Source: Ornithinibacillus sp. 4-3 (GTDB lineage: Bacteria > Bacillota > Bacilli > Bacillales > Amphibacillaceae). From it: DNA of 64,000 bases. A program made the translations under genes and the position numbers. Numbering within the stretch: position 1 is the first letter of the stretch; the number at the start of each line of letters is the position of its first letter. The stretch lies in assembly GCF_040958695.1 (NCBI RefSeq), contig NZ_CP162599.1, positions 530,001 through 594,000 on the forward strand, in the 5' to 3' direction. The notes beneath the pieces were generated by a model, which saw only the letters and a program-made list of their open reading frames with translations, was not told the DNA's origin and searched no databases. Of the stretch, positions 5,956 to 43,813 are shown in pieces.

Positions 5956-6112
5956 TGTTCAAAAGTCCAACAAAAATGACACATCGAACAGGGGAACTCC
6001 GACTAAGTTCCGACACGTCCTGTGTCGAACGTCGATGTACTAGTGCAGATGTTGCTCGCGTGACGTTGCGAACTTAACCGATGACGGTCCTTTTTACTGA
6101 CCATTTTGAACA
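5956..6112. repeat. Dispersed intergenic repeat, copy 1 (long form, 157 bp)
   Basis: The element begins TGTTCAAAAGTCC and ends GGTCC..ATTTTGAACA, giving imperfect terminal inverted repeats. It is GC-richer than its surroundings. Its left 33 bases are nearly the same as the left end of the copy at 32993-33137, and on the other strand it aligns with the copy at 59626-59792 at both ends and in parts of the middle. It has no convincing coding content. It lies between hisJ and the proS T-box leader. Confidence 0.75.
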
Positions 6113-6149
6113 CGCACTATATGTAAAAAACATTGAAAAGGAATAGTAT

Positions 6150-6345
6150 TATTTACTTGTCTTTATTTCAGAGAGGAAATGGTTGGTGTAAATTTCTAAG
6201 GACATAAATAAGAACCTGCCTTTGAGTTCGCCTAATGGGCGCGGTGAAGAACCGTTATCAAAAGAAGTGTATAGCAAGGTTAGTATGCTGTAAAAAAGGG
6301 TGGTACCACCAAAACTCGGTCCCTTACTGGATGGAGCTTTTTTTA
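6150..6345 (+). promoter_or_regulatory. T-box leader of proS (proline specifier CCU)
   Basis: The 5' leader of proS has the marks of a T-box riboswitch. GGTTGGTGTAAA lies at 6181-6192. A specifier segment GAACCTGCCTTTGAGTTC follows, in which CCT at 6215-6217 (a proline codon) occupies the specifier position. The T-box proper, GGGTGGTACCACC, is at 6298-6310. A terminator stem (CTCGGTCC/GGATGGAG) with a run of T ends at about 6344. Uncharged tRNA-Pro should stabilise the antiterminator and raise proS expression. The 5' boundary is approximate. Confidence 0.88.
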
Positions 6346-11692: not shown

Positions 11693-12089
11693 TATTTCTT
11701 TCCCACCTATCACCTATATTTGCAAGATACAAATGAATGGAATATTCTTGCCATCTTACATTATAACAATAATGATTTATTTGAAACAACTACCAACATT
11801 TAGGAAAAGTGACATTTTATTAACAAATGATCAGTATATATACTTGTATAGATAGCAATAATAAAGGAGATACTAATAGAGCTGCAAAGAGTTGAAATTG
11901 AAATAAAAGACACCATAAGTATAAGAGCTATCAAGATTCCATTAATATGTTTTTTTAACAAGTGAAATTCTTGGAAAAGAAAGTACAATTTTTTAAGAAG
12001 AATGGGTTTACAATATCTTAAGAGATTGATGGAGACAAGTTAAAACTTTCAGAAGTGTAAAAAAACAAAAATTAATTTTAACAAAAACC
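11693..12089. other. AT-rich gap before the cold-shock gene
   Basis: No gene supported. A hydrophobic 62-codon minus-strand frame at 11800-11988 lacks a ribosome binding site. The stretch presumably holds the trhO promoter on its left. Confidence 0.5.
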
Positions 12090-12118
12090 TTGATTTTTTA
12101 AAAGCAAAATAGTAATAT
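12090..12118 (+). promoter_or_regulatory. Sigma-A-like promoter of the cold-shock gene with long 5' leader
   Basis: TTGATT and TAATAT are separated by 17 bases. The transcript would carry an untranslated leader of about 118 bases before ATG 12243, as is usual for csp genes, where the leader acts as an RNA thermosensor. AAGGAGG at 12229-12235 is a strong ribosome binding site. Confidence 0.65.
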
Positions 12119-12242
12119 AAGGTATAGCAAATGGAAATTGAAGTTTCAATAATACTTTACGATCTCTTTATCAAAGAAGTGGTGTAAAAGTATTTTAAGA
12201 TTCAATTACTTTGCACGATATATGAATAAGGAGGTCATCCTA

Positions 12243-12440
12243 ATGACAGGTAAAGTAAAATGGTTTAACGCAGAAAAAGGTTTTGGATTCATCGAGCGTG
12301 AAGACGGAGACGATGTATTCGTACATTTCTCAGCTATCCAATCTGAAGGTTTCAAAACTCTTGAAGAAGGTCAAGATGTTGAATTTGAAATCGTTGAAGG
12401 CGAGCGCGGCCCACAAGCTGCTAACGTAGTAGGTCTTTAA
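12243..12440 (+). CDS. Cold-shock protein (CspA/B/D family)
   Basis: 65 residues forming one cold-shock domain that binds single-stranded RNA/DNA. RNP1 is KGFGFI and RNP2 is VFVHF; the start [18 protein letters not shown] is canonical. A longer frame opens at 12222 but AAGGAGG 8 bases before ATG 12243 fixes the start. Highly negative C-terminal half, as in Bacillus CspB. Followed directly by its own terminator. Confidence 0.96.
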
Positions 12441-12457
12441 TTTAAACTTTAAATGAT

Positions 12458-12493
12458 AAAAGCTTATCTCATTTTGAGATAAGCTTTTTTTGT
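12458..12493 (+). terminator. Intrinsic terminator after csp
   Basis: AAAGCTTATCTCA pairs with TGAGATAAGCTTT around TTT, then a T run. Confidence 0.92.
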
Positions 12494-12540: not shown

Positions 12541-12569
12541 TTGACGCTCACTTTAATTATTGATATTAT
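12541..12569 (+). promoter_or_regulatory. Sigma-A-like promoter of the solute-binding protein genes
   Basis: TTGACG, 17-base spacer, TATTAT. The predicted start at about 12576 is a dozen bases before the structured leader at 12589. Confidence 0.65.
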
Positions 12570-12588
12570 ATTAAGAAATATTCTAAAT

Positions 12589-12680
12589 TGACTGTTAAAT
12601 CTAATTGACTTTACTGATGAAGTGAAGCATAGCCTAGATAATATACCAGTTATATGGAAAGAATTTTTAGTGATTCTTTT
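12589..12680 (+). promoter_or_regulatory. Candidate structured leader RNA (copy A) upstream of the binding-protein genes
   Basis: Three nested helices can form. P1 is TGACTG (12589-12594) with CAGTTA (12647-12652). P2 is ATCTA (12599-12603) with TAGAT (12635-12639). P3 is CTTTACT (12609-12615) with AGTGAAG (12621-12627), loop GATGA. An A/T-rich hairpin AAAGAAT/ATTCTTT (12658-12679) then runs into TATTT. The same order of helices and similar joining sequence (CTG-TTAA-ATCTA, TGA before P3, CA after it) recur at 18273-18370, with changed but still pairing bases. I do not recognise the class; it could be an undescribed riboswitch or protein-binding RNA. Confidence 0.55.
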
Positions 12681-12736
12681 ATTTGGCGATTAGATTTTTA
12701 AATACAGTGTATAGGAATATTTTTTTTATTTCCAAA

Positions 12737-12751
12737 ATGAAAGCGGTTACT
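12737..12751 (+). promoter_or_regulatory. CcpA (cre) site candidate
   Basis: ATGAAAGCGGTTACT matches the cre consensus WTGNAANCGNWNNCW at every fixed position. It lies downstream of the promoter, so CcpA would act as a roadblock to repress the binding-protein genes when good sugars are present. Confidence 0.65.
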
Positions 12752-12842
12752 AAAATAAGTTAATACATAGCGTAAAAAAGTTATTTGCCTCAATGAGAGC
12801 CTTAAAAAATTATATAGAGAAATCACAAAGGAGAGACATCTT

Positions 12843-14456
12843 ATGCAAAGAAAGCTTTTTACAATATTATTATTGGCGCTATTACTGATAGTAGGATTAG
12901 CAGCTTGCGGAGGGGACAAAGAAACTGGTGGAGAAAATGAAAATTCAAAGGATGCCAACACGAAAGATACAGATGCAGAGGGAAATAATGATGAGTTTCA
13001 GGAATTGAAAATTGCCTACTCTGCTCAACCACATATGCTTGATCCTCATGTAACAACAAATATTGCAACATCAGATATTTCAAGGCACTTTTTTGAAACT
13101 TTATTGACGGTAGACTCAGAATTTAATGTACAGCCAATGCTGGCAGAGTCGTGGGAATTAAGTGATGACGGCAAAACATACACATTTAAATTACGACAAG
13201 GTGTAGAATTCCATAATGGAAAAGAATTAAAAGCAGAGGATGTAGTAGCCTCGCTAAATCGTTGGAAGGATTTATCTGGAGGACGTGGATTATTTCTAGA
13301 TTCCACTTTTGTTGAAGTAGATGATTACACCGTAGAATTACAAATGCCTGAACCATTATCTATTGCACTTACAGGTCTATCCTATATGGGTGGAGGGTAT
13401 GCGGCAATTATGCCAAAAGAGATTATCGAAGGTGCATCAGAGGATGGGGTAACAGAATATATTGGTACAGGTCCATATGAATTTGAAGAATGGCGACAAG
13501 ATCAACATATATTATTAACAAAAAATGATAATTACCAATCTCGTGATGAAGAGCCGGATGGATTGTTTGGAAAAAGAGAGGCAATTATTGATGAAATCTA
13601 CTTTATGTTTGTAACAGATTCTTCTACAAGGGTTGCCGGGATACAATCTGGAGAATATGATATTGCACACGCTGTACCTTTTGATAGTGCTGATCAATTA
13701 GAAGGAAGCCCAGGGCTAGAAAATCATATATATCCTACTGCATTTCTAATCGCACATTTTAATAAAAAGAATGGTGTGTTTACAGATCCAAAAGCTCGTG
13801 AGGCTGCTTTAGCCGTTGTCAATGCAGAAGATGTATTAAAAGCGGCATATTCTAATGATAAATACTATATGCTAAATCATAGTTTGATGATGCCACATCA
13901 ACAGGATCAATGGTATAGTGACGTCGGTGAAGAGTTATATAATCAAAATGATTTGGAAAAAGCAAAGGCACTATTAGAGGAATCTAATTATAATGGCGAA
14001 GAAGTAAGGATTATCGCCACAAGAGACTATGAAGACCAGTATTTAGGTGGAGTAGTGCTTCAGGAACAATTAGAAAGTATGGGAATGAATGTAACATTAG
14101 AAATCTATGATTGGCCAACACTTTCAGATTTAATTTATGAAGAAGATGCATATGATATCTTTATGATGGGTAACACACCTGTCTCTGAACCAACATCAAG
14201 TGTATTCTTACGTCCAGACTATGCCGGTTTTATTGACGACCCTAAGATAGTAGAACTTGTTGATGAATTTAGAAGTAAGCCAACAGCAGAAGAGGCTAAG
14301 CCAATTTTTGATGAATTACAAGCATGGTTCTATGAATATATTCCTGCGATACGTTTCGGGGATTTCAACCGTGTAGCTACCACTAAAGATACAATTGATA
14401 AATTCCAATATTTAGATGGATTCTATTTCTGGAATATGTCTATTGATAATGAATAG
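12843..14456 (+). CDS. Oligopeptide-type ABC transporter solute-binding lipoprotein (paralogue 1)
   Basis: 537 residues, SBP family 5 (OppA/DppA type). The signal peptide ends in a lipobox LAAC with Cys22, followed by a charged Glu/Asn/Asp linker to about residue 50. Family marks include AYSAQPHMLDPHVTT, the MLAESWELSDDGKTYTFKLRQGVEFHNGKEL signature region, and YIGTGPYEFEEW. It should be tethered to the outer membrane face and deliver a peptide-like ligand to a permease. Very similar to the next gene and less so to the third. No permease or ATPase genes are adjacent. AAAGGAGAG precedes ATG 12843. Upstream are the promoter, structured leader and cre site. Confidence 0.9.
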   Translation: MQRKLFTILLLALLLIVGLAACGGDKETGGENENSKDANTKDTDAEGNNDEFQELKIAYSAQPHMLDPHVTTNIATSDISRHFFETLLTVDSEFNVQPMLAESWELSDDGKTYTFKLRQGVEFHNGKELKAEDVVASLNRWKDLSGGRGLFLDSTFVEVDDYTVELQMPEPLSIALTGLSYMGGGYAAIMPKEIIEGASEDGVTEYIGTGPYEFEEWRQDQHILLTKNDNYQSRDEEPDGLFGKREAIIDEIYFMFVTDSSTRVAGIQSGEYDIAHAVPFDSADQLEGSPGLENHIYPTAFLIAHFNKKNGVFTDPKAREAALAVVNAEDVLKAAYSNDKYYMLNHSLMMPHQQDQWYSDVGEELYNQNDLEKAKALLEESNYNGEEVRIIATRDYEDQYLGGVVLQEQLESMGMNVTLEIYDWPTLSDLIYEEDAYDIFMMGNTPVSEPTSSVFLRPDYAGFIDDPKIVELVDEFRSKPTAEEAKPIFDELQAWFYEYIPAIRFGDFNRVATTKDTIDKFQYLDGFYFWNMSIDNE

Positions 14457-14554
14457 TCATTTTTTAAGAAGATCATTTGGCAATTCAACTACATCATTTT
14501 TTTAGTTAATCTAACTAGCTTTTTACGTATGTTAGAACTTCCACTCAATAAAAT

Positions 14555-14613
14555 AATCTATCTGTCTGTAGCAGGGAATGAACACTGTCACAGATAGATA
14601 GATTTTCTTTCAA
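14555..14613 (+). terminator. Intrinsic terminator after paralogue 1
   Basis: AATCTATCTGTCTGT pairs with ACAGATAGATAGATT (one weak pair), followed by TTCTTT. It separates the first binding-protein gene from the second, so the second probably has its own promoter. Confidence 0.8.
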
Positions 14614-14749
14614 AACTTCTATGTTTTAACACATCTTATGAGTATACTCCAAAAGATTATCCATAAATCGATTCTCAACAATGACAAAACACCCAAGGAA
14701 AAGAAGGAAAACTACAAATATGTAAATGATGAAAGGTGAGGTTTGGGTG

Positions 14750-16354
14750 ATGAAAAAATTAGTATCTCTTGTATTGTTCATTTTCTTAGGTTTTGTTTTA
14801 ATTGCTTGTTCTAGCGATAGTAAAGGCGACGCGGAGCAAGAAGGAACAGAAGAACCTGGCGCAGAAGAGAAGGGAGAGGCAGAAAAGGATACGTTTCAAG
14901 AATTAAAAGTAGCTTACTCTGCACAGCCACATTTGCTCGATCCACATGTAACTACGAATATTGCTACATCAGATGTTTCAAGACACTTTTTTGAATCACT
15001 CTTAACAGTAGACTCGGAATATAACGTTCAGCCGATGTTAGCGGAATCATGGGAATTAAGTGAGGATGGAAAAACTTTTACTTTCCAGCTTAGGCAAGGT
15101 GTAACTTTTCATAATGGAAAAGAACTAAAAGCAGAAGATGTTGTTGCATCATTAAATCGTTGGAGTAGTTTAGCAGGAGGAAAAGGATTATTTGAGGATG
15201 CAGAATTTGTGGAGATCGATGATTATACATTAGAATTGCGCATGCCTGAACCATTATCGATTGCATTAACAGGTCTATCTTATTTAGGTGGAGGATTTGC
15301 AGCGATTATGCCAAAGGAAGTTATTGAAAATGCTTCCCCTGATGGAGTAACAGAATTTATTGGAACTGGCCCATATGAATTTAAGGAATGGAAACAGGAT
15401 CAATATGTTTTATTAACGAAATATGAGGATTATGTTTCGCGTGAAGAAGAGCCAGATGGTTTATTTGGAAGACGTGAAGCTATCATTGATGAAATTCGTT
15501 TTATCTTTGTTGCTGATTCATCAACACGAGTTGCCGGAATTCAGTCAGGTGAATATGACTTAGCTCATGCTGTACCGTTTGACAATGCAGATCAACTAGA
15601 AAGTAACCCTGATCTGGTTAACTATGTGTATCCAACTGCATATTTAATTGCTCATTTTAATAAAAAGCAAGGGTTTTTTGCTGATAAAACGGCTCGTCAA
15701 GCTGCATTAGCAGCAATTCAAGCAGAGGATGTATTAAAAGCAGCATATTCGAGTGAAAAGTATTACATGCTAAACCATAGTTTGATGATGCCTCATCAGC
15801 AAGACCAGTGGTATAGTGACGCTGGTCAAGAACTCTATAACCAAGATGATCAGGAAAAAGCCAAGGCTTTATTAGAAGAAGCTGGTTATGACGGAGAAGA
15901 AATTAAAATTATTGCGACAAGAGATTATGAGGATCAATATTTAGGCGGAGTAGTACTCCAAGAACAACTACAAAACATTGGAATGAATGTAACACTAGAA
16001 GTCTATGATTGGCCAACACTTTCAGATTTAATTTATGAAGAAGATGCATACGACATTTTTATGATGGGGAATATTCCATCATCAGAGCCTTCTTCTAGTG
16101 TAATGTTCCGAGCTGATTATGCAGGTTGGCCTGAGGATCCGAAATTAGAGGAGCTTATTCAGAAATTCAGAAGCATGCCGACAGAAGAAGAAGCAAAACC
16201 TGTATTTGACGAGTTGCAAGAATGGTTTTATGATTACGTTCCTAGTTTGAGATTTGGAGACTTCAATCGCGTTGCTACAGCACATAAATCTGTTGGTAAC
16301 TTCCAGTATCAAGACGGTTTCTTTTTCTGGAACATGACAAATAGTAAGGAATAA
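14750..16354 (+). CDS. Oligopeptide-type ABC transporter solute-binding lipoprotein (paralogue 2)
   Basis: 534 residues, SBP family 5. Signal peptide MKKLVSLVLFIFLGFVLIAC with lipobox cysteine, then an acidic Glu/Gly-rich linker. From ELKVAYSAQPHLLDPHVTT onward it follows paralogue 1 almost residue by residue (for example the identical segment around LNHSLMMPHQQDQWYSD), so the pair arose by recent tandem duplication. ATG 14750 is chosen because GAAAGGTGAG lies before it; a frame opening at 14726 would bury that site. No transport partners nearby. Ligand unknown. Confidence 0.9.
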   Translation: MKKLVSLVLFIFLGFVLIACSSDSKGDAEQEGTEEPGAEEKGEAEKDTFQELKVAYSAQPHLLDPHVTTNIATSDVSRHFFESLLTVDSEYNVQPMLAESWELSEDGKTFTFQLRQGVTFHNGKELKAEDVVASLNRWSSLAGGKGLFEDAEFVEIDDYTLELRMPEPLSIALTGLSYLGGGFAAIMPKEVIENASPDGVTEFIGTGPYEFKEWKQDQYVLLTKYEDYVSREEEPDGLFGRREAIIDEIRFIFVADSSTRVAGIQSGEYDLAHAVPFDNADQLESNPDLVNYVYPTAYLIAHFNKKQGFFADKTARQAALAAIQAEDVLKAAYSSEKYYMLNHSLMMPHQQDQWYSDAGQELYNQDDQEKAKALLEEAGYDGEEIKIIATRDYEDQYLGGVVLQEQLQNIGMNVTLEVYDWPTLSDLIYEEDAYDIFMMGNIPSSEPSSSVMFRADYAGWPEDPKLEELIQKFRSMPTEEEAKPVFDELQEWFYDYVPSLRFGDFNRVATAHKSVGNFQYQDGFFFWNMTNSKE

Positions 16355-16381
16355 AAATTAGAAATGAAAATGATTTTGGTG

Positions 16382-16418
16382 TTACTAATTTCAGCTTCTA
16401 TAGGCTAGAGATTAGTAA
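16382..16418 (+). other. Hairpin between binding-protein paralogues 2 and 3
   Basis: TTACTAATTT pairs with AGATTAGTAA (one G-U), with an inner AGC/GCT pair. There is no T run after it, so it is not a standard terminator; it may protect a 3' end or separate expression of the two genes. Confidence 0.45.
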
Positions 16419-16527
16419 TGCCTAGCTTCAAAATAAGTGCTTATTAATTTAACAGATATTGACATGCATTGGGACGACTCCCCGAAAAAAGCATTGTTCA
16501 AAATATAAAAAAATAGGGTGAGGTAAA

Positions 16528-18120
16528 TTGTATAAAAAGGAAAAGTATATGAAGTATTTTATTGTTCTATTATTAGCGATCGTATTAATTGGTTGTAATT
16601 CAACATCTTCTTCAGATAATGATGAAGAAAATCAATCAAATGAAGAGGGCAATGCGAGTGTAGGAGGAGAAATTGTTGTCGCGTATTCTTCGCAGCCGCC
16701 AGTACTCGATTCTCATGTGAGCTCGGCAGATGCAATTGTAGATACGATGCGTCATGTATATGACACGTTAGTAACGATCGACTCAGAATATAATGTTCAA
16801 CCATCTTTAGCAGACTCATGGGAAATAAGTGAAGATGGAAAAACATACACGTTTAAGCTACGAGAAGGTGTATTATTCCATAATGGTAAGGAATTTACTG
16901 CTGAAGATGCTGCTGCCTCTATGAATCGATGGAAGGAGTTACCTGGAAGTAGAGGGATTTTTAAAGATGCTACATTTGAGGCTGTAGATGATTATATATT
17001 AGAGCTACATTTACCGGAACCTTTATCCATTGCATTAACAGTTCTAGCATATTCTAATAGTGGATTTGCAATGATTATGCCAAAAGAGATTGCTGAAAAT
17101 GCTTCTGCGGAAGGAGTAACAGAACATATTGGTACAGGACCATTTCGTTTTGAAGAATGGAAGCCAGATCAGTATTTACATTTGAAGCGTTTTGAAGATT
17201 ATAAGCCAAGAGAAGAGCCTACAGATGGATTATCTGGAAAGAAAGAAGCATTAGTAGATGATTTACGTTTTGTTTTTGTAGCCGATTCATCGACACGTGA
17301 AGCTGGAATTCGTTCTGGAGAATATGATTTTTCACATGCGATTCCATTTGATAGTGCAGAGCAATTAGAATCTACTGGAGAAATCACGAACTACACGTAC
17401 CCAGGAGCATATGTAAATCTTCATTTTAATAAAAAGCAAGGGATATTTACCGAGAAGGAAGCACGCCAAGGGGTTGCGGCAATTCTAGAGATGGATAGTA
17501 TTTTAAGAGCTGGCTATGTAGATGAAAAGTATTATACGGTGAATCATAATATGATGATGACACATCAGGAAAGTCAATGGTATAGTGATGTCGGTAAAGA
17601 GAAGCATAACTTGAATGATCCGGTAAAAGGAATGGAATTATTGGAGCAGGCTGGATATAACGGTGAAGAGGTGACATTATTTACGACGAGAGATTATGAG
17701 GATCAATATCATAGTGCAGTCGTAATTCAAGAGCAGTTAGAACAAGCAGGTGTAAACGTAACTCTTGAAGTTTATGATTGGCCCACTTTACTAGATAAGA
17801 TTTATGAAGAAGATGGTTATGATATGTTTGTGATGGCAAATACAGTAGTAGCAGAGCCTACATCAGGCCCTTACTTTAATCCAGAATATGCTGGTTGGCC
17901 AAATGATCCGGAAATGGAAAAAATAAAAGCAGAATTTAGAGGGAAGCATACGGAAGAAGAAGCAAAACCAGTGTATGATCAATTGCAAGAGTGGATGTGG
18001 GATTATACACCAGCAGTTAAGATAGGAGATTATGATCGTGTATCATCAGCACGTAATACGTTAGAGAACTTTCAATATTTAGATGGCATGATTTTCTGGA
18101 ACGTTAAAAATAACAAGTAA
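16528..18120 (+). CDS. Oligopeptide-type ABC transporter solute-binding lipoprotein (paralogue 3)
   Basis: 530 residues, SBP family 5. The lipobox is VLIGC in a short signal peptide; a Ser/Asn/Glu linker follows. It shares the fold-wide pattern of the two preceding genes (WEISEDGKTYTFKLREGVLFHNGKEF, HIGTGPFRFEEW, YDWPTLLDKIYEEDGYDMFVM) but differs at many ligand-pocket-type positions, so it may bind a related but different ligand. TTG 16528 sits 5 bases after GGGTGAGG; ATG 16549, preceded by AAAAAGG, is an alternative. A terminator follows. Confidence 0.88.
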   Translation: MYKKEKYMKYFIVLLLAIVLIGCNSTSSSDNDEENQSNEEGNASVGGEIVVAYSSQPPVLDSHVSSADAIVDTMRHVYDTLVTIDSEYNVQPSLADSWEISEDGKTYTFKLREGVLFHNGKEFTAEDAAASMNRWKELPGSRGIFKDATFEAVDDYILELHLPEPLSIALTVLAYSNSGFAMIMPKEIAENASAEGVTEHIGTGPFRFEEWKPDQYLHLKRFEDYKPREEPTDGLSGKKEALVDDLRFVFVADSSTREAGIRSGEYDFSHAIPFDSAEQLESTGEITNYTYPGAYVNLHFNKKQGIFTEKEARQGVAAILEMDSILRAGYVDEKYYTVNHNMMMTHQESQWYSDVGKEKHNLNDPVKGMELLEQAGYNGEEVTLFTTRDYEDQYHSAVVIQEQLEQAGVNVTLEVYDWPTLLDKIYEEDGYDMFVMANTVVAEPTSGPYFNPEYAGWPNDPEMEKIKAEFRGKHTEEEAKPVYDQLQEWMWDYTPAVKIGDYDRVSSARNTLENFQYLDGMIFWNVKNNK

Positions 18121-18221: not shown

Positions 18222-18250
18222 TTGACTGGTAAGCGAATAGTTGCTATATT
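18222..18250 (+). promoter_or_regulatory. Sigma-A-like promoter of the ThDP-enzyme gene
   Basis: TTGACT, 17-base spacer, TATATT. The start at about 18257 precedes leader copy B by some 16 bases, the same arrangement as at 12541. Confidence 0.65.
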
Positions 18251-18272
18251 GAAAATAGTAAAATTTTCAAAA

Positions 18273-18370
18273 TAACTGTAAAATCTATCTGACTTTATCG
18301 GCGAGATAAAGCAATACAATAGATTCTTAACCAGTTACATTGAAAAAGAAATTATGTGTTAATTTCTTTT
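18273..18370 (+). promoter_or_regulatory. Candidate structured leader RNA (copy B) upstream of the ThDP-enzyme gene
   Basis: All three helices are perfect here. P1 is TAACTG (18273-18278) with CAGTTA (18332-18337). P2 is AATCTA (18282-18287) with TAGATT (18320-18325). P3 is CTTTATC (18293-18299) with GATAAAG (18305-18311), loop GGCGA. An 11-bp hairpin AAAAGAAATTA/TAATTTCTTTT (18344-18370) follows and runs into CTTTAT, so it may be an attenuator. P3 differs from copy A on both strands while still pairing, which argues for selection on RNA structure. Confidence 0.58.
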
Positions 18371-18435
18371 CTTTATAATTGGTTTTTTTATGAAAACCTA
18401 AAAATAGAATAATAGTTTAATTATTTTTCTGATTG

Positions 18436-18505: not shown

Positions 18506-20206
18506 ATGACAGTTAATAATGAAAATACATTTACGATGGCTGATGCTATTGTAAAGGAATTGAAGCGTGAAGGTGTAGAAGTTGCATTCGGGATTGTTAG
18601 TATCCACAATATGCCAATTTATGATGCAATTTTACGTGATGGTAGTATCCATCTTGTAGGTGCTCGTGGTGAAAGCGGTGCAGTGAATATGGCTGATGGA
18701 TACGCTCGAGCAACTGGGAAAATAGGTGTTGTGATTACAAGTACAGGTGCCGGAGCAGGAAATACTGCCGGTTCTCTAACAGAAGCATGGAACCGTGGTG
18801 TACCACTTCTACATTTATCTGGAGATGTTGCATTTCCACACCTAGGAACAGGAAAACGTTATATTCATGAATGTAAAGATCAGCTTCAGATGATGGAAGG
18901 AGCAAGCAAAAAAGCATATCATGTTAAAAATCCTGAGCAAATTTCTAGTTTAATGCGTCATGCAATTGCAGAAGCAAAAGCATTACCATCAGGACCAGTG
19001 ACAATTAATATGCCAATTGACTTCCAATCGGTTATTGTACCTGATACAACATTTATTGATGCTACACCAGAAGTGTCTAAGGAAGCATTAAAGCCTGTAC
19101 ATATTCCGGAAGAAGTAGTGAGTGAAATTGCTGCTGCGAAACGTCCGACTATTTGGGCTGGTGGCGGTGTTTTAGAAGCTAATGCAATGGAAGAATTAAC
19201 GCATTTTGCTGAAAAAATTGGAGCAGCAGTTATAAGTGGGCAATCTGGAAAGGGAGCGATTCGAGAGGATCATCCACAGTGGATTGGACACTTTGCAACA
19301 ATGCCACCAACAAAAGAACTGTTCGAGAAATCAGATTTATTTATTAGTATTGGAACTAAATTACGTGGAAATGAGACAGGTAACTGGACATTACCATTAT
19401 CTGAAAATCATATAAAGATTGACTTAGATATTAACGCATTTAATCTGAGCTATCCTGTAAAATATGGGATTGTTGGAGATGCGAAACAAGTATTAAAGCA
19501 ATTAGTAGAAGAATTAGATAAGAAGGATGTTAAAGCAGACGCAGCTTATATAGAAGAGGTAGAGAATACTCGTAATAAGCTACGTGATAATTTACGAGCG
19601 GCTGTTCATCCTTACGATAAATTTGTTGATGTTATGCGTGAAAAAGCACCAGAGGATGCCATTTTTGTCCGTGATATTACAGTTCCTGCGTCATTATGGG
19701 GAAGTCGTTTATTTAATATTTACCAGCCAAACACGAATATTTACGCTTCAGGTGGAGGGATTGGTCAAGGTTTACCAACTGCCATTGGAGCACAGGTAGG
19801 GGCACGTGATAAAGTGGTTATGCTAATGGCTGGAGACGGCGGTTTCATGCTAAATGTTGGTGAATTAGCAACTGCTGCACAAGAAGAACTCCCGATGATT
19901 GTCCTTTTGTTTGACGATAAAGGATATGGAGTATTACGAGGAATTCAGGATGATGTTTATAATCGTCGTGTTGGTGTTGAGTTATTTACACCTGATTTCG
20001 TAACACTTGGAGAGTCCATGGGCTTTGAATCTGTACGTATTAAAGACGCGGAAGAATTTGCAGAGGAGCTAGAAAAAGCAATTGCTAGTAAGAAGCCTTC
20101 CATGATTGTCGTTGATATGAATGCTGTTGGTCCAATGGCAAGTCGTGGAGCTACAGCGCCTGATCTTGTAAATAATTATATTCCAAAAAAACGCTTTGAA
20201 GATTAA
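18506..20206 (+). CDS. Thiamine diphosphate-dependent enzyme (acetolactate synthase/2-oxo acid decarboxylase superfamily)
   Basis: 566 residues with the three-domain POX-type fold. The N-terminal pyrimidine-binding domain has VAFGIVSIHNMPIYDA and the catalytic glutamate Glu56 (GARGESGAVNMADGYARATG, where typical ALS has RHEQGA). The central domain follows, and the C-terminal domain has the ThDP motif starting GDG at residues 443-445 and ending LLFDDKGYG, with DD in place of the usual NN. It should act on a 2-oxo acid or aldehyde, as a decarboxylase or ligase; specificity cannot be read. It is not a standard IlvB: no small subunit is near. GAGGAGG precedes ATG 18506. It heads the catabolic half of the island and has its own leader. 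Confidence 0.85.
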   Translation: MTVNNENTFTMADAIVKELKREGVEVAFGIVSIHNMPIYDAILRDGSIHLVGARGESGAVNMADGYARATGKIGVVITSTGAGAGNTAGSLTEAWNRGVPLLHLSGDVAFPHLGTGKRYIHECKDQLQMMEGASKKAYHVKNPEQISSLMRHAIAEAKALPSGPVTINMPIDFQSVIVPDTTFIDATPEVSKEALKPVHIPEEVVSEIAAAKRPTIWAGGGVLEANAMEELTHFAEKIGAAVISGQSGKGAIREDHPQWIGHFATMPPTKELFEKSDLFISIGTKLRGNETGNWTLPLSENHIKIDLDINAFNLSYPVKYGIVGDAKQVLKQLVEELDKKDVKADAAYIEEVENTRNKLRDNLRAAVHPYDKFVDVMREKAPEDAIFVRDITVPASLWGSRLFNIYQPNTNIYASGGGIGQGLPTAIGAQVGARDKVVMLMAGDGGFMLNVGELATAAQEELPMIVLLFDDKGYGVLRGIQDDVYNRRVGVELFTPDFVTLGESMGFESVRIKDAEEFAEELEKAIASKKPSMIVVDMNAVGPMASRGATAPDLVNNYIPKKRFED

Positions 20207-20382: not shown

Positions 20383-21660
20383 TTGCCAGAACAAAGAAAA
20401 CGAATTGCAGATTATATTGACCAGCATAAAGATGAGTTAATAAGAGAAGTTCAAAATGCGGTGAGAATTAAAAGCTTAGTTGGAGAAGAGCAAGAAATGC
20501 AAGCGTTTATGAAGAAGAAGTTTGAAGAGATTGGTTTGAAGGTAGTTGAATCTCAGCCAAGCTACGAACAGGTTTCTAAGCATGAGGCATATTGTCATTC
20601 AGGTTTTCCTTTTGAAGGTAGAACAAATATTGTTGGAATTTATGAAGGTTCAGATGCTTATAAATCGTTAACTTTAGAAGGACATGTTGATGTTGTATCA
20701 GCCGAGCCAGAGGAAGTATGGTCCTATGATCCATGGGGTGCTGAGATTGTAGGGAATCGTATGTATGGTCGTGGTGCACTAGATATGAAGTCCGGATTGA
20801 TGGCAAACTGGTTTGCTATGAAAGCACTGCTAGAACTAGGGTTAAAGCCAAAGGGTTCTGTTCAATTGCATAGTACGATTGAAGAAGAATCTGGAGGAGG
20901 AGCAGGAGCCCTAGCCTTGATGGAAGAAGGATTTTTAACAGACGGTTATTTGACAACAGAACCACATGCACTTCGTGTAACTGTATCACATTCTGGGGTG
21001 ATGTATTTCCGTGTGAAGGTAGTTGGAAAAACAGCACATGCTGCACGTTCACAAGAGGGAATTAATGCAATTGGGAAAATGTATAAAATTTATCATGCAT
21101 TAGAAGAGCTTGATCGAAAACGTGGAGAAGAAGTTATTTTTGAACTTATTCACAAAGCGTCTGACGGCCGTTCATGTAATTTAAACTTAGGAAGAATGGA
21201 AGCTGGGGACTGGGTATCTAGTGTAGCTGGCTGGGCAGTGTTAGAATGTCGTTTAGGATTCATTCCGGGTGAATCAAGAGAAGATATGAAGCGCCTGATT
21301 GATGAGACAATCGCTGATGCAATTAAAGGGGATGAATGGCTAGAGCAGTATCCGCCAGAAGTTGAGTGGTTTGGTTGGACAACAGAGGCATGGTATCAGG
21401 ATCCAGATCATCCATATGTACAAGAATTTATTAAGAGTGCTAAAGAAACATTAGGTCGCGATGAAATAGAAATTATTGGTCGTACGGGTGGAAATGATGC
21501 ACGCTTTACCCAATATTATAATCGTCCAGGAATTGGTTTTGGACCAGATGGAAAGTATTCTCACGGACCAGATGAATATGTGGAAATAGACACGATTATC
21601 GACACTGCTAAAGTGTTGGCAAATCATATTTTAGATTGGACATCAATTCCTAAAGCTTAG
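20383..21660 (+). CDS. M20 family ArgE/DapE-type deacylase
   Basis: 425 residues, a two-zinc amidohydrolase. Metal and catalytic motifs are GHVDVVSAEPEEVWSYDPWG (His and Asp near residue 100), GRGALDMKSG near 128, the Glu pair in STIEEESGGG near 168, and the late NDARFTQYYNRPGIGFGPDG segment. A lid domain with GKTAHAARSQEGINAI lies between. It resembles ArgE/DapE-family deacetylases and should remove an acyl group from an amino compound. TTG 20383 follows AAGGAGG by 8 bases. Followed within 51 bases by a second M20 gene, suggesting two related hydrolysis steps or substrates. Confidence 0.85.
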   Translation: MPEQRKRIADYIDQHKDELIREVQNAVRIKSLVGEEQEMQAFMKKKFEEIGLKVVESQPSYEQVSKHEAYCHSGFPFEGRTNIVGIYEGSDAYKSLTLEGHVDVVSAEPEEVWSYDPWGAEIVGNRMYGRGALDMKSGLMANWFAMKALLELGLKPKGSVQLHSTIEEESGGGAGALALMEEGFLTDGYLTTEPHALRVTVSHSGVMYFRVKVVGKTAHAARSQEGINAIGKMYKIYHALEELDRKRGEEVIFELIHKASDGRSCNLNLGRMEAGDWVSSVAGWAVLECRLGFIPGESREDMKRLIDETIADAIKGDEWLEQYPPEVEWFGWTTEAWYQDPDHPYVQEFIKSAKETLGRDEIEIIGRTGGNDARFTQYYNRPGIGFGPDGKYSHGPDEYVEIDTIIDTAKVLANHILDWTSIPKA

Positions 21661-21711
21661 AGCACTACATTTTTCTAAGTTTAAAAATAACATTTGGAGT
21701 GGAGAGATATA

Positions 21712-22842
21712 ATGGATCAATTAATATCTTATATTGATAACAAAGAAGAAGACTTCCTGCAATTGTTTAAACAAATGATTGAGCTAGAATCTCCAACATA
21801 CAATAAAAGCAAAGTTGATCAGTTAGTTGATTTTATTGAGAACTTTCTGAAGGAGCAAGGTGTAGAAGTCCAGCGCATGAAGGATGACACATTTGGAGAT
21901 CATCTTGTTGGTGAGTGGGGCGATGGCGAAGAGCAAATTATGTTCTTAGGCCATATTGATACGGTTTGGGAAGAAGGCACAATTAATCGCATGCCTTTTG
22001 CAGTAAATGGAGATCGAATTACTGGTCCTGGAACGTATGATATGAAAGGTGGAGTTTTCCAAGGGCTCTATGCCTTAAAAGTAATGAATGAATTAAAACT
22101 GAAGCCGAAATACAAAGTGGTTTTTGTTATTAATACAGATGAAGAAGTGGGAACACCTAACTCACGAAATATTATTGCTGAATACGCCAAAAAATGTAAA
22201 TATGTTTTTTGCGCAGAGCCAGCAAATCTACCAAATGGCGCAGTAAAAACATTTCGTAAGGGTGTAGGAAGGTTCCAATTAGAAATTGAAGGTATTGCTT
22301 CTCATGCAGGAGCAGACCCTTATGAAGGTGTAAGTGCCATTCACGAGTTTGCCCATCAAGTCGTTTATTTAGAATCGTTAGCAGATAGAAAAGAGGAAAC
22401 CACAGTTAATGTTGGGGTTGTGAATGGTGGAACTCGTTCCAATGTGTTAGCTGCTAACCTAACTGCAGAAATTGATATCCGTGTCAGCAAAATTAGTGAA
22501 GCTGATCGTATTGTTCCATTGATTAAAAATTTAAAACCGATAAATCCAAGAGCGAAAGTGACTATTCATGGTGATTTAAACCGTTATCCGATGGAAAGAA
22601 CACCTGAAATTACTGCACTCTATGAAAAAGTTAAAGCTCTTGCGAAGGAACAAGGCTTCGATTTACCAGTGACTGGCAGTGGTGGCGGAAGTGATGCCAA
22701 TATCACAGCGGCATTAGGAATACCGTCTGTTTGTGGGATGGGTGTTGTAGGTAGCGGTGCACACTCAGAAGATGAACATTGTCTTTTATCTTATATACCA
22801 CAAAGAATTGCTTTATTAATTAACGTGTTTAGTAATGTATAA
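21712..22842 (+). CDS. M20 family carboxypeptidase G2-like hydrolase
   Basis: 376 residues. Motifs are LGHIDTVWEEGTINRMPF, GPGTYDMKGG, NTDEEVGTPNSR, EPANLPNGAVKTFRKGVGRF and the C-terminal SGGGSDANITAALGIPSVCGMG, which match glutamate carboxypeptidase (CPG2)-type M20 proteins that cleave a C-terminal amino acid from an acyl or peptide partner. The ATG at 21712 follows GGAGTGGAGAG; an upstream in-frame TTG (21694) lies inside that site. In the same unit as the preceding deacylase. Substrate unknown. Confidence 0.85.
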   Translation: MDQLISYIDNKEEDFLQLFKQMIELESPTYNKSKVDQLVDFIENFLKEQGVEVQRMKDDTFGDHLVGEWGDGEEQIMFLGHIDTVWEEGTINRMPFAVNGDRITGPGTYDMKGGVFQGLYALKVMNELKLKPKYKVVFVINTDEEVGTPNSRNIIAEYAKKCKYVFCAEPANLPNGAVKTFRKGVGRFQLEIEGIASHAGADPYEGVSAIHEFAHQVVYLESLADRKEETTVNVGVVNGGTRSNVLAANLTAEIDIRVSKISEADRIVPLIKNLKPINPRAKVTIHGDLNRYPMERTPEITALYEKVKALAKEQGFDLPVTGSGGGSDANITAALGIPSVCGMGVVGSGAHSEDEHCLLSYIPQRIALLINVFSNV

Positions 22843-22945: not shown

Positions 22946-24367
22946 ATGCTTTATATTAATGGTGAATGGATTAAGACGGAAGATAAAATGGATGTTTTTA
23001 ACCCAGCAACTGGAGAGTTAATTGAATCTGTTTCAACTGGTGGAAAAGAGTATGCAAAACAAGCAATTCAAGATGCTAAAGAAGCATTTAAGACTTGGAA
23101 AAAGCTAACTGCTAAAGAGCGTGGGTCTTATTTAGCAAAGGCTGCAGAAATTATGAAGAGCAAAGCAGATCAGTTAGCAGAAACAATCACTAAAGAAAAT
23201 GGTAAACCATTACCAGATGCAAAAGGTGAAGTAGCAAGTGGTATCGAGCATTTAGAATGGTATGCAGAAGAAGCGAAGCGTGTGTATGGTGATACTGTAC
23301 CAGCGTCATCTCCTGACAGACAGCTACTTGTAATCAAACAGCCGATTGGTGTTTGTGGTGCAATTACGCCATGGAATTTCCCATTATCTATGATTACACG
23401 AAAAATTGCTCCTGCAATTGCAGCAGGATGTACGGTGGTATTAAAACCTGCTCCAGATACACCACTTTCTGCGATTCATGTATTTGAGTGCTTCCATGAG
23501 GCAGGACTTCCTAAAGGCGTTATTAACCTTGTTATTGGGCCAGCAGAAGAAATTGGTCATGAATTAACAAGCAGCTCAGATGTTAGAAAAATTTCATTTA
23601 CAGGATCTACGATGGTAGGTAAAAAATTACTTAAAGATTCTGCAGATACAGTGAAGAAAGTATCAATGGAGCTTGGTGGACATGCACCTTATATTGTTTT
23701 TGATGATGCAGACCTTGATTTAGCAGTTGATGGTATTCTAGCTTCTAAGTTCAAAAATGCTGGTCAAACATGTATTAGTACAAACCGTATTTATGTACAT
23801 GAAAATGTTGCAGATGAATTTAGTGAGAAGCTAGCTGCAAAAGTTAGTAAATTAAGTGTAGGAAATGGTATTGAAGACAATGTAGATGTTGGGCCAGTAA
23901 TTACACAGGCTGCCATTTCTAAAGTGAAAAATCATGTAGAGGATGCTGTTAAGAATAATGGTAAAGTCCTTACAGGTGGTAAAGTACATGCGAAAAGTGA
24001 AGCTGGTGGAAACTTCTTTGAGCCAACAGTTATTGCAAATGCAAATGAAAGCATGTTAATCGCATCAGAAGAAACATTTGGACCTGTAGCGCCAATCTTT
24101 ACATTTAAAGATGAAGAAGAAATTGTAGAAAAGGCAAATCACCCTACTTATGGACTTGCAGCTTATTGCTTTACTAGCAATCTAGGACGTAGTATGCGTA
24201 TGATGCAAGAACTTGAGTTTGGAATTGTTGGAATTAACGATACTTCACCAGGGGGAGTGCAAGCTCCATTTGGAGGAGTTAAAGAGAGTGGAATTGGTAA
24301 AGAAGGCGGACAATATGGTATCCGTGAGTATTTAGAAGAGAAAGCAGTGTCTATTCGTCTCGTATAA
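22946..24367 (+). CDS. NAD(P)-dependent succinate-semialdehyde-type aldehyde dehydrogenase
   Basis: 473 residues of the ALDH superfamily, closest in pattern to GabD. The catalytic residues are Glu242 (SMELGGHAPYIVF) and Cys276 (NAGQTCISTNRIY). The cofactor region has TPWNFPLSMITRK and FTGSTMVGKKL; the C-terminus has FGGVKESGIGKEGG. It should oxidise an aldehyde made by the neighbouring aminotransferase or ThDP enzyme to the acid. True substrate could be succinate semialdehyde, malonate semialdehyde or an analogue. TTTAGGAGG precedes ATG 22946. The aminotransferase gene follows 44 bases on. Confidence 0.87.
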   Translation: MLYINGEWIKTEDKMDVFNPATGELIESVSTGGKEYAKQAIQDAKEAFKTWKKLTAKERGSYLAKAAEIMKSKADQLAETITKENGKPLPDAKGEVASGIEHLEWYAEEAKRVYGDTVPASSPDRQLLVIKQPIGVCGAITPWNFPLSMITRKIAPAIAAGCTVVLKPAPDTPLSAIHVFECFHEAGLPKGVINLVIGPAEEIGHELTSSSDVRKISFTGSTMVGKKLLKDSADTVKKVSMELGGHAPYIVFDDADLDLAVDGILASKFKNAGQTCISTNRIYVHENVADEFSEKLAAKVSKLSVGNGIEDNVDVGPVITQAAISKVKNHVEDAVKNNGKVLTGGKVHAKSEAGGNFFEPTVIANANESMLIASEETFGPVAPIFTFKDEEEIVEKANHPTYGLAAYCFTSNLGRSMRMMQELEFGIVGINDTSPGGVQAPFGGVKESGIGKEGGQYGIREYLEEKAVSIRLV

Positions 24368-24411: not shown

Positions 24412-25758
24412 ATGAGTTTAATTAACGAATTAGTAGAATTAGATAAAAAACATTTTATTCATCCGACATCATCTATTCAAGATCAACAAGAAAAGGGACC
24501 AAAAGCGATCATTGAAAAAGGTGAAGGAATTTATTTAACGGATATCGAAGGAAATGTTTACATTGATGGTATGTCATCATTATGGAATGTTAATATTGGA
24601 CATGGAAACAAAGAATTAGCGGAGACTGCAAAAGAGCAAATTGAAAAATTAGCATTTACTTCTACTTTTTCTACGTTTAGTCATGAGCCAGCAATTCGTT
24701 TAGCAGCAAAAATCGCATCACTTGCACCTGAAGGCATGAATGCAGTGTTCTTTACTTCAGGTGGTTCAGAGTCTAATGATTCTGCTGTTAAATTAATTCG
24801 TCATTACTGGAAAATACAAGGAAAACCTGAGCGTAACAAGATTATTGCACTTAGCCGTGGATATCACGGAGTAGCAGCAGCCTCTACAAGTGTAACAGGA
24901 ATTCCTGAGTTCTGGGATATGGCTGGTCATATGATTACCGGAACAACTCATGCAGATACCCACTATACTCGTGGAACAGAAAAATCAATTGCTTCCTTAC
25001 GTGCAGTAATTGAAAGAGAAGGTCCAGAAACAGTTGGTGCGTTTATTGCAGAACCTATTCAAGGTGCAGGTGGAGTAATTGTGCCTCCAGCGGATTACTT
25101 TAAAGAAATTCGCAAAGTTTGTGATGAGTATGGAATTTTATTCGTAGCAGATGAAGTTATAACTGGTTTTGCGCGAACTGGAAAAATGTTTGGTATTGAA
25201 AATTATGGTGTGACACCAGACTTAATGACATTTGCTAAAGGAGTAACAAGTGGTTATATTCCTTTAGGAGGAGTAATCGTTTCTGATGCAGTTCATGATG
25301 TGTTAAAAGAGAAGTCGAAGGGCGTTCTTTTCCATGGCTTTACTTATAGTGGACACCCTACTGCAGCAGCAGTTGCTTTAAAGAATATTGAAATTATGGA
25401 AAGAGATAATCTAGTAGAAAACTCTCGCAAAATGGGAGAAGTTTTACTAGATGGCTTTAAGAAAATCAAAGAAAAATTAAATATTGTTGGTGATGTTCGT
25501 GGAGTTGGATTACTAGGAGCTGTAGAGCTTCTTGAAGATCCAGCAACGGATAAACATTTTGATCCATCGCTAAAAGTAGCTGGAAGAGTAATTGAAGCAT
25601 TACATCAACGTGGTGTAATTTGCCGCCCTGTATCTTATGAAGGCACAGATATTATTTGTTTCTGTCCTCCATTAATTATTAATGAAGAACAGGTAAATAC
25701 AATGCTGGATAAATTACATGATGCTATTTTAGAAGTTCAAAATGAATTAGGATTATAA
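24412..25758 (+). CDS. Class III PLP aminotransferase (omega-aminotransferase type)
   Basis: 448 residues, fold-type I class III. SSLWNVNIGHGNKEL near the N-terminus, FFTSGGSESNDSAVKL (phosphate site), the segment RGYHGVAAASTSVTG, FVADEVITGFARTGKMFG (cofactor Asp) and the PLP lysine Lys276 in MTFAKGVTSGYIPLGG are visible. The layout is that of putrescine/beta-alanine/taurine-pyruvate aminotransferases, which convert omega-amino compounds to aldehydes; the aldehyde dehydrogenase just upstream would take the product. AAAGGAGG lies 8 bases before ATG 24412. A terminator follows. Amino donor unknown. Confidence 0.87.
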   Translation: MSLINELVELDKKHFIHPTSSIQDQQEKGPKAIIEKGEGIYLTDIEGNVYIDGMSSLWNVNIGHGNKELAETAKEQIEKLAFTSTFSTFSHEPAIRLAAKIASLAPEGMNAVFFTSGGSESNDSAVKLIRHYWKIQGKPERNKIIALSRGYHGVAAASTSVTGIPEFWDMAGHMITGTTHADTHYTRGTEKSIASLRAVIEREGPETVGAFIAEPIQGAGGVIVPPADYFKEIRKVCDEYGILFVADEVITGFARTGKMFGIENYGVTPDLMTFAKGVTSGYIPLGGVIVSDAVHDVLKEKSKGVLFHGFTYSGHPTAAAVALKNIEIMERDNLVENSRKMGEVLLDGFKKIKEKLNIVGDVRGVGLLGAVELLEDPATDKHFDPSLKVAGRVIEALHQRGVICRPVSYEGTDIICFCPPLIINEEQVNTMLDKLHDAILEVQNELGL

Positions 25759-25826: not shown

Positions 25827-25893
25827 TGGAGATGAAGAGAGTTTTAGGTTGATATATTTCTAGATGAAATTTTTCTGTTAGGGGATGAAAATA

Positions 25894-27507
25894 ATGGCTA
25901 GTATTATTAAAGCAGATTTGATTTTTATTAATGGGAATGTCATTACGATGAATGAGTTATCACCAGAAGCAAATGCAATTGCAGTAAAAAATGGAAGTGT
26001 TTTATATGTTGGAGAAACAGAAGATGTACTTACATTAAAAGGTGAACAAACAGAGGTTGTTGATTTACAAGGGAAGACCATTATGCCCGGATTTGTAGAG
26101 AGCCATACACATACAACTGGTTATGGAAATAATTTATTGCAAGTAGACTGTCGCCCAGCTCAAACACCATCAATTGATGATATTTTAGCAAAGGTAAAAG
26201 ATGCAGTTGAAGCTACACCTGAAGGTGAGTGGATTCGAGGTTGGGGATGGGATGATAGTAGATTAGCAGAAAAGAGAAATCCAACACGTTGGGATCTAGA
26301 TAAAGTAGCGCCAAATCATCCAGTATTTCTGAAAAGAACTTGTGGACATGTGGCTGTAGGTAATTCAAAAGCTCTTGAGATAAGTGGAATTACTAAAGAT
26401 ACACCAGATCCTGATGGTGGTCATATTCAATTGGATAAGGAAACAGGAGAACCAACAGGTATCTTGCAAGAATTAGCTCAAGGACTAGTATCTTTACCGA
26501 AGCTTACAAAGGAAGATGTAGCGCGTGGTTTAAAACTGGCACAGAAGGATTATGCTAAATGGGGAATTACTACACTACATGATATGTCTACACAAAAAAT
26601 TGATATGGAAGTATTTCAAATGCTCAAAGAGCAAAATGAATTAACTGTTCGTGTTCGTCCTTGGATATGGGCAATGGCACAAAGGGATCGTGCAGGTTTA
26701 CTTGATGAAATGATAACATTAGGTCTTCATAGTAATCTAGGTGGTGATATGGTCAAAATCCAAGGAATGAAATTCATGCTGGATGGAAGTGTTGGTGGTA
26801 GAACAGCAGCGACCGCTGAGCCGTATGAAGATGATGATAGCAAGGGAATTTTATATTATGACAAGGAGCATGTTGCACCATATATGAAGCGTGCTTTAGA
26901 AGCAGGTTTACGTGTAGCAATTCATGGAATTGGTGAACGAGCGATTGATGTTGCATTAGAATCATTTAAAGAAGCACACCAAGCTGTAGATATTTCAAAA
27001 ATGCGTAATCGCATAGAGCACTGTGGATTGCCAACAGAGGATCATTTGAAGACAATGAAGGAACTAAATATGATTGCAGCTTCTTCTATTGGCTTTATTT
27101 ATCATCTGGGAGATAGCTATATTCGTAATCTAGGACCAGAGCGTATGAAGCGTGTGTATCCTCAAAAAACATTTAAAGAATATGGAATTGTTGCACCAGG
27201 GAACTCCGATTTACCAGTAACAGATGGTAACCCATGGCTTGGAATTTATGCGGCAGTCAATCGTAAAACTGTTTCTGGTCAGGTTACAGATACCGTTCAA
27301 AATATTTCTGTGTATGATGCGATTAAAGCATATACAGTAGATGCGGCATATAGTTCCTTTGAAGAAGATACATTAGGTATTATCAAAGAGAATGCAAAAG
27401 CAGATTTGATGATTGTTTCAGACAATCCGTTTGAAATTGACACAGAAGCATTGAAAGATATTACAGTAGAAGCAACTTATTTAGGTGGTAAAAAAGTTCA
27501 TGGTTAA
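25894..27507 (+). CDS. YtcJ-like metal-dependent amidohydrolase (amidohydrolase family 3)
   Basis: 537 residues. The start of the metal site is His71/His73 (GFVESHTHTTGYG); VAIHGIGERAID and MRNRIEHCGLPTEDH supply later histidines, and GNSDLPVTDGNPWLGIY the late aspartate. The order matches YtcJ/NfdA-type exoenzyme-like amidohydrolases that hydrolyse amide or formamide bonds. The ATG at 25894 is preferred; ATG 25885 overlaps the AGGGGAT ribosome site. It lies past a terminator, so it is a separate transcript, but its chemistry fits the island. Substrate unknown. Confidence 0.83.
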   Translation: MASIIKADLIFINGNVITMNELSPEANAIAVKNGSVLYVGETEDVLTLKGEQTEVVDLQGKTIMPGFVESHTHTTGYGNNLLQVDCRPAQTPSIDDILAKVKDAVEATPEGEWIRGWGWDDSRLAEKRNPTRWDLDKVAPNHPVFLKRTCGHVAVGNSKALEISGITKDTPDPDGGHIQLDKETGEPTGILQELAQGLVSLPKLTKEDVARGLKLAQKDYAKWGITTLHDMSTQKIDMEVFQMLKEQNELTVRVRPWIWAMAQRDRAGLLDEMITLGLHSNLGGDMVKIQGMKFMLDGSVGGRTAATAEPYEDDDSKGILYYDKEHVAPYMKRALEAGLRVAIHGIGERAIDVALESFKEAHQAVDISKMRNRIEHCGLPTEDHLKTMKELNMIAASSIGFIYHLGDSYIRNLGPERMKRVYPQKTFKEYGIVAPGNSDLPVTDGNPWLGIYAAVNRKTVSGQVTDTVQNISVYDAIKAYTVDAAYSSFEEDTLGIIKENAKADLMIVSDNPFEIDTEALKDITVEATYLGGKKVHG

Positions 27508-43507: not shown

Positions 43508-43813
43508 GAAAAGCGCAGAGCGTCCTTACAGGCTAAAAACGTGACGTCCTGTCACAACGCCTGCACTAGCACGTCCTGTGCGTCGAAAAACGTAGAGATT
43601 GGAGTGGCACAACCGAGATAAAGGAAACATGCCCCTTTAGGGGTATCCGACGTTAGGCTTTAGCCTGGTTTTAGTCGGGCTTCCTTATAAAACAAAATCG
43701 ATGTTGACTTATCGTAGGGCGTGACGGGAAATCTCATAGTTTTTGGCGCTCGGAGCTAGACATGGCTAGTTCTGAATAAGAATTAATTTGCGCAATTCTT
43801 ATACTTTTCTATC
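43508..43813. repeat. GC-rich intergenic repeat, long form, with GAGCTAGACA tail
   Basis: Starts GAAAAGCGCAGAGCG and ends GGCGCTCGGAGCTAGACATG followed by a tail shared with 27984-28047. The interior is much richer in G+C than its surroundings, with ACGTCCTGTCAC, CACTAGCACGTCCTGTG and a CCCCTTTAGGGG hairpin. Its ACGTCCTGTG module also occurs in repeat copy 1 near 6015. It resembles the long intergenic repeats common in Bacillaceae. No coding content. It separates the two-component genes from the PepSY gene. Confidence 0.65.

Follow-up and report, generated by a model that had tools for sequence, protein, structure and literature searches.

A candidate riboswitch class with a P1-overlapping terminator before genes of putative 5-aminovalerate and glutarate catabolism

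The pbuE adenine riboswitch is a transcription-attenuating RNA of the ON type, in which helix P1 of the aptamer competes with the terminator. Proteins of the BglG/LicT type act at RAT sites, hairpins of about 30 nt, by clamping the RNA and blocking the terminator, and a further point of reference is the ykkC RNA, variants of which sense other ligands. The protein regulators of csiD and gcdH in Pseudomonas putida have glutarate, not 5-aminovalerate, as effector, and CsiR also responds to L-2-hydroxyglutarate (PMC6667623). A published riboswitch for glutarate or 5-aminovalerate was not found in the open-licence PMC literature, among the matches listed.

The RNA described here was predicted in DNA of Ornithinibacillus sp. 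4-3, where it stands twice in the window, the whole stretch of 64,000 nucleotides that was analysed (contig NZ_CP162599.1, positions 530,001 to 594,000). Judged from sequence, it looks like a candidate for a new riboswitch class outside the families of Rfam 15. It is probably the aptamer domain of such a class, acting by transcription attenuation, with glutarate as the presumed ligand of one set of copies (G-type, with GCCAG) and 5-aminovalerate or a close relative as that of the other (A-type, with ACCAG; both typed by script).

The two copies in the Ornithinibacillus window

Both copies in the window are of A-type (Table 1). A promoter before copy A, the three helices of that copy and a second copy with the same helices were all part of the original prediction and are all present, copy B with a promoter-like site of its own. 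The two sites are the top scorers of the promoter scan, in which the number of promoter-like sites is close to that expected by chance (3 versus 2.5 for copy A, 4 versus 2.8 for copy B). The two leaders can be aligned across 73 columns, and P3 has two pairs more than predicted, with a bulged A in between. Inside fusA the genome has a third exact match of ACTGTNAAATCTA, which was set aside as chance.

Rfam 15 returned no match for copy A up to an E value of 10, six matches for copy B, all far below cut-off, and none for 20 homologous loci; with nothing above cut-off at any of these, the strong hit to a known family that would have spoken against the proposal was not found. A scan of the window with Rfam 15 gave four matches, none at copy A or B. 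Elsewhere in the window are a T-box leader (6124-6327) before a gene judged by eye to be prolyl-tRNA synthetase-like, a cspA thermoregulator match right at cut-off (12088-12490; 78.2 vs 78) and two Bacillaceae-1 RNAs (5987-6043 and 43517-43582).

Copy A is followed by three tandem SBP_bac_5 paralogues (12843-18120), and the adjoining ORFs include no ABC permease gene. Like A-type copies generally, those of the window precede mainly genes of transport and transamination. The thiamine-diphosphate (TPP) enzyme, the M20 hydrolases and the peptide-type binding proteins do not belong to the usual 5-aminovalerate gene set, and csiD is absent from the window's genome by Pfam search, which was counted against the glutarate-pathway reading. 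Guanidine and taurine pathways, suggested by the TPP enzyme, were dropped with models under cut-off.

Table 1. Features of the two RNA copies and of the genes that follow them (window positions)
Feature	Position	Strand	Remarks
Promoter-like TTGACG-17-TATTAT of copy A	12541..12569	+	site score 10 of 12
Conserved RNA, copy A (A-type)	12586..12657	+	78.3 bits, model R2
Helices of copy A	P1 12589-12594/12647-12652; P2 12599-12603/12635-12639; P3 12609-12615/12621-12627
A/T-rich hairpin and T run 3' of copy A	12659..12698	+	unlike the canonical terminator of the RNA family
cre-like site ATGAAAGCGGTTACT	12737..12751	+
SBP_bac_5 solute-binding protein 1	12843..14456	+	first gene after copy A
SBP_bac_5 solute-binding protein 2	14726..16354	+
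SBP_bac_5 solute-binding protein 3	16528..18120	+
Promoter-like TTGACT-17-TATATT of copy B	18222..18250	+	site score 10 of 12
Conserved RNA, copy B (A-type)	18270..18342	+	72.6 bits, model R2
Terminator of copy B	18329..18389	+	AACCAGTTA 18329-18337 paired to TAATTGGTT 18376-18384, T run behind
Thiamine-diphosphate enzyme	18506..20206	+	first gene after copy B; reaches the NF005470 cut-off
ArgE/DapE-family deacylase (M20)	20383..21660	+
M20 carboxypeptidase-like hydrolase	21694..22842	+
Aldehyde dehydrogenase	22946..24367	+	best NCBIfam model succinate-semialdehyde dehydrogenase, just under cut-off
Class III omega-aminotransferase (omega-AT)	24412..25758	+	commonest type of first gene following this RNA in the family of the window
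Amidohydro_3 (YtcJ-like) amidohydrolase	25885..27507	+	relatives directly 3' of copies elsewhere

Spread, fold and overlapping terminator

Three covariance models were used: R1, built from copies A and B only; R2, from 40 copies of one family, none with csiD as first gene; and R3, from 93 copies. L074 (weak, with neither gene nor terminator seen) and L059:51-116 were left out before R2, and few candidates were scored per genome in the searches, so that weak matches were lost. Within the window's own genome R1 finds copies A and B only, and it has no match in the single further genome of the genus; across the window's family it gives 41 matches in 34 of 159 genomes, a recovery from two copies alone that marks the RNA as more than chance. 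At the level of the order R2 finds it in 30 of 397 genomes, and at that of the class in 5 of 398, two of these five lying outside the order, both with the RNA before csiD. Within the order R3 matches 66 of 397 genomes, in 33 of 136 genera, and across the phylum 2 of 398 genomes, both members of the order; the phylum search thus doubles as a false-positive control. Named carriers by R3 match include Virgibacillus ndiopensis, V. oceani, V. litoralis, Lentibacillus halodurans, Compostibacillus humi, Oceanobacillus indicireducens, O. profundus, Sporosarcina limicola and Viridibacillus arenosi.

A third copy in the window's genome, before another SBP_bac_5 gene, is recovered with R2 as well as with R3. 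M20 hydrolase genes were observed near the third copy (C1:1318897-1318965; L107, L133:1508-1576), on the opposite strand. One record titled Roseburia sp. 1XD42-34 (L181) holds a close Bacillales-type relative of the omega-AT together with this RNA; the record name may be wrong. The 135 distinct copies tallied below are 98 plus 37 of the R3 matches of the order search, other matches and copies seen later being left out; the 98, used for terminator and gene counts, are 100 rows minus L052:1589 and L133:7816, both of which stay in one other count.

The conserved RNA is about 72 nt long. An alignment of 93 distinct sequences with 21 pairs gives 1816 cells, of which 94.0% are paired; slid controls reach 26-45%. 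Changes on both sides are seen in 17 of the 21 pairs, with 215 double-change cells, and 0 of 500 shuffles, which ignore relatedness, match any of the observed covariation measures. That changes which preserve pairing reflect a conserved RNA shape, as had been proposed from two copies, is borne out by these shuffles and by the family search with the two-copy model. The outermost pair of P1 is unpaired in 38 of 91 cells, so poorly supported that P1 is nearer five pairs. Because the alignment had itself been fitted to the model, column pairs were also ranked by corrected mutual information; the top 11 consist of 10 model pairs and the pair 21-82, a sixth covarying pair of P2, and no pseudoknot is evident among the 35 top column pairs listed. 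Across 98 copies, with the two outermost P1 pairs left out, G-U cells number 117 versus 195.5 expected from independent columns and mismatches 49 versus 242.4, counts which argue that the element acts as RNA. The core is roughly CTG-nnn-AATCTA-nn-nGA-[P3]-C-n-TAGAT-nn-AARCCAGT, and the tip of P3 differs between copies in both length and sequence. A CTGATGA resembling a hammerhead motif, noted in the loop of P3, was dropped as not conserved. With a conserved fold and compensatory changes, such as a riboswitch would have, the element is almost certainly a structured regulatory RNA.

The terminator was assessed over 11 bases, beginning two before the P1 3' strand, for pairing with a segment further 3' that runs into a stretch of T's. 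At least 9 of the 11 arm positions pair, with a T run behind them, in 95 of 98 copies, and all 11 do so in 49; in 87 of the 98, at most 5% of shuffled arms are equally good. The first arm base and its partner change together (A-T in 49 of 49; G-C in 42 of 48 and G-T in 6; one T-T). An expression platform that excludes the aptamer, as in known attenuating riboswitches, is thus found in these 95 copies. In copy B the arm AACCAGTTA overlaps the P1 3' strand and pairs at 9 of 11 positions, with 13% of shuffled arms equally good, which misses the 5% level; the minimum free energy structure of its leader has P1 open and the terminator formed, with P2 and P3 kept. This terminator is absent from the output of a simple terminator scan.

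Copy A is the exception, with 7 of 11, the lowest of the 98, and no canonical terminator. The A/T-rich hairpin, T run and cre-like site predicted to follow it are there, the last as ATGAAAGCGGTTACT by the cre consensus; as a terminator of the family type, the hairpin failed. The original prediction was silent on a terminator that shares the P1 3' strand, which most homologues have and its own copy A lacks. An alternative pairing in copy A, AAATCTAAT/ATTAGATTT with the P2 5' strand, is equalled by 100 of 1000 shuffles and was rejected as chance level. Copy A may be a diverged or translational version.

Downstream genes and the two sequence types

First genes were assigned by BLAST with one or two references each, as ORFs on the same strand within 700 bases, and protein identities are those of one representative per type. 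Among the 135 copies the first gene is an omega-AT in 31, csiD in 30, a CoA-transferase in 19, an APC permease in 8, HyuA in 7, GabT in 5, YtcJ in 4 and SSS in 3; SBP5, DAACS, acyl-CoA dehydrogenase, PotA and GntR are first in two copies each, and NhaC, a TPP enzyme, a saccharopine-dehydrogenase-like gene, Rieske, TRAP and ALDH in one each. An unassigned ORF comes first in six copies, and six have no same-strand ORF within 700 bases; both groups were counted against the pathway theme. Homologues before similar genes are thus many, and the RNA lies, as a riboswitch should, in the same-strand 5' leader of genes of one metabolic theme, with 12 of 135 copies lacking an assigned first gene.

The CsiD representative (Pfam PF08943) meets the NCBIfam model for glutarate dioxygenase GlaH (450 bits, cut-off 333), that of LhgO the L-2-hydroxyglutarate oxidase model (586, cut-off 299) and that of GabT TIGR00700, GABA transaminase (625, cut-off 507). 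The best model for the CoA-transferase is succinate-glutarate CoA-transferase, below cut-off (433 vs 750), and for HyuB caprolactamase beta, also below cut-off; the dehydrogenase has acryloyl-CoA reductase as its best model and glutaryl-CoA dehydrogenase as its second, below cut-off (381 vs 470). The best solved relative of the omega-AT is the Virgibacillus amine transaminase 6fyq. The gene set is read as a route from lactam or amine uptake through transamination and semialdehyde oxidation to glutarate, and on to 2-hydroxyglutarate or glutaryl-CoA, and points to glutarate/5-aminovalerate catabolism.

Genes chosen independently of the RNA were also surveyed. A Pfam search of 199 genomes of the order gave 27 csiD genes. 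Of these, 16 have a same-strand R2 match upstream, at a distance from the Pfam match of up to about 160 bases in 15 and of about 320 in one; R3 matches upstream of 23 of the 27, with 15 already in its training set. A protein search for the omega-AT gave 80 loci, and 22 of the 32 closer ones (L161-L192) have an R3 match, just before the omega-AT in 20 and before a CoA-transferase further upstream in L164 and L171; R3 has no match at the 48 more distant loci (L193-L240, 53-58% identity).

Several gene neighbourhoods carry additional features. On the far side of the omega-AT/APC pair or of the permease, L036, L039, L042, L045, L047, L048 and L061 carry ectoine-degradation-like genes: a doeA-like M24 gene and, in some, a eutB-like dehydratase, M20D, a second aminotransferase and RidA (one representative each). 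Ectoine was set aside as a ligand, since the omega-AT/APC pair accompanies the RNA also where ectoine genes are missing. A small gene, its representative assigned to DUF3870 (PF12986), occurs near glutarate genes at 18 loci (e.g. L050, L110, L112, L118, L124, L125, L258). L267, L271 and L273 hold three related copies with terminators, 476-490 bases before an unassigned ORF of about 1210 aa, with no obvious link to the pathway. At L125:3-1075 an opposite-strand copy stands beside a second one, before a Rieske-type oxygenase gene, which may hint at methylated aminovalerate.

The base before CCAG divides the 135 copies into 49 with A, 85 with G and one with T (L058). A csiD, CoA-transferase or acyl-CoA dehydrogenase gene is first in 51 of 85 G-type copies (30 + 19 + 2) versus 0 of 49 A-type copies (Fisher p 2e-14, relatedness ignored). 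Both types occur in eleven examined genomes from four genera (G066, G177, G307, G337, G426, G485, G495, G504, O. indicireducens, O. alkalisoli and O. luteolus), each time with the A-type at amine or uptake genes and the G-type at csiD or a CoA-transferase; in the three named Oceanobacillus genomes, A-type before omega-AT and G-type before CoA-transferase belong to one gene string. Against a strict rule, G-type copies precede the omega-AT in Sporosarcina (L162, L167, L168, L170), Planococcus (L183) and Viridibacillus (L185), so that base and gene type are not one to one.

Candidate mechanism, alternatives and known systems

The conserved fold, the place on the coding strand before genes, the mutually exclusive terminator in most copies and the theme of the genes were all computed here. 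Under the proposed mechanism, the P1 3' strand CCAGTTATAT of a ligand-free RNA would pair with sequence further 3' into an intrinsic terminator, so that transcription ends there. A ligand seated in the pair of conserved internal loops would keep P1 from opening and block the terminator, so that genes for uptake and catabolism would be transcribed. For the window this would put the three binding-protein genes under copy A and the enzyme genes under copy B. Because in most copies the P1 3' strand can double as the 5' arm of the terminator, a stabilised aptamer should block termination, and antitermination in the ON sense is highly probable.

The original proposal of a riboswitch or protein-responsive attenuator, tuned to a compound used by the gene island, finds support in the lack of an Rfam family and in the homologues before similar genes. 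Between its two halves, a metabolite is likely what is sensed, rather than a protein. An RNA-binding regulator that clamps P1 and so blocks the terminator would follow the same logic of terminator overlap, and direct binding of a small molecule by the RNA is itself an inference. Such a regulator is nonetheless improbable: none is common to all the listed gene strings (GntR or PAS-sigma54 appears in some, and many genes there are unassigned), and a 72-nt element of three helices with conserved internal loops exceeds a RAT hairpin. Still far less credible is a DNA operator of nested palindromes, bound by a transcription factor. Every helix is indeed an inverted repeat in the DNA too, and GntR genes occur in some operons; against this, G-U pairs are tolerated over mismatches, the element lies 3' of a promoter-like site in the window, and a strand common to element and terminator is possible in 95 of 98 copies.

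Glutarate is slightly favoured for the G-type, as the common substrate of the two gene sets that are found alone (csiD; CoA-transferase plus dehydrogenase) and as the effector for csiD and gcdH in Pseudomonas putida. The A-type ligand is a guess from the amine side, 5-aminovalerate or a related compound, and the assignment to something like 5-aminovalerate is tentative, at somewhat less than an even chance. It is conceivable, if speculative, that the two types are sister riboswitch classes on one scaffold, the loop base next to P1 setting specificity for 5-aminovalerate (or its lactam) with ACCAG and for glutarate with GCCAG, and that they are stacked in Oceanobacillus, with each substrate inducing its own half of the pathway. 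A single class with glutarate as its only ligand, the A/G difference reflecting lineage history or upkeep of the terminator, draws on two observations: the same omega-AT gene has G-type leaders in Sporosarcina, Planococcus and Viridibacillus, and the A/G base pairs within the terminator, where it covaries with its partner. This is rather unlikely in view of the first genes that are confined to the G-type (relatedness ignored), the like sorting of the eleven dual-type genomes and the three Oceanobacillus gene strings.

If a metabolite riboswitch is correct, it would bring a class with a testable ligand to the pathway of lysine, 5-aminovalerate, glutarate and 2-hydroxyglutarate, for which protein regulators are what the literature consulted has so far described, and would offer an RNA sensor for precursors of nylon-5 and glutarate. 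The two types would constitute a natural one-base test of aptamer discrimination between an amino acid and a dicarboxylate, and the YtcJ amidohydrolase, SSS symporter, DUF3870 and HyuAB would gain a candidate pathway.

Set beside described systems, the RNA resembles BglG/LicT RAT sites in overlapping a terminator, but it is longer, with three helices, and no PRD regulator gene is named in the listed gene strings. Its logic is close to that of ON riboswitches of the pbuE type, with a P1 3' strand common to aptamer and terminator, a ligand that should favour read-through and a place in the leader of transport or metabolic genes; unlike those, it consists of one stem interrupted by two internal loops, and it differs in its conserved bases and its genes. 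The ykkC RNA has a fold and genes unrelated to those of the new RNA. The likeness to the guanidine (ykkC) family (PMC7266159) lies in possible sister subtypes a few core bases apart. In the genes it precedes, the RNA parallels CsiR and GcdR of Pseudomonas putida, which control csiD-lhgO and gcdH and respond to glutarate; those are GntR and LysR proteins acting on DNA (PMC6667623), whereas here the candidate regulator is an RNA leader.
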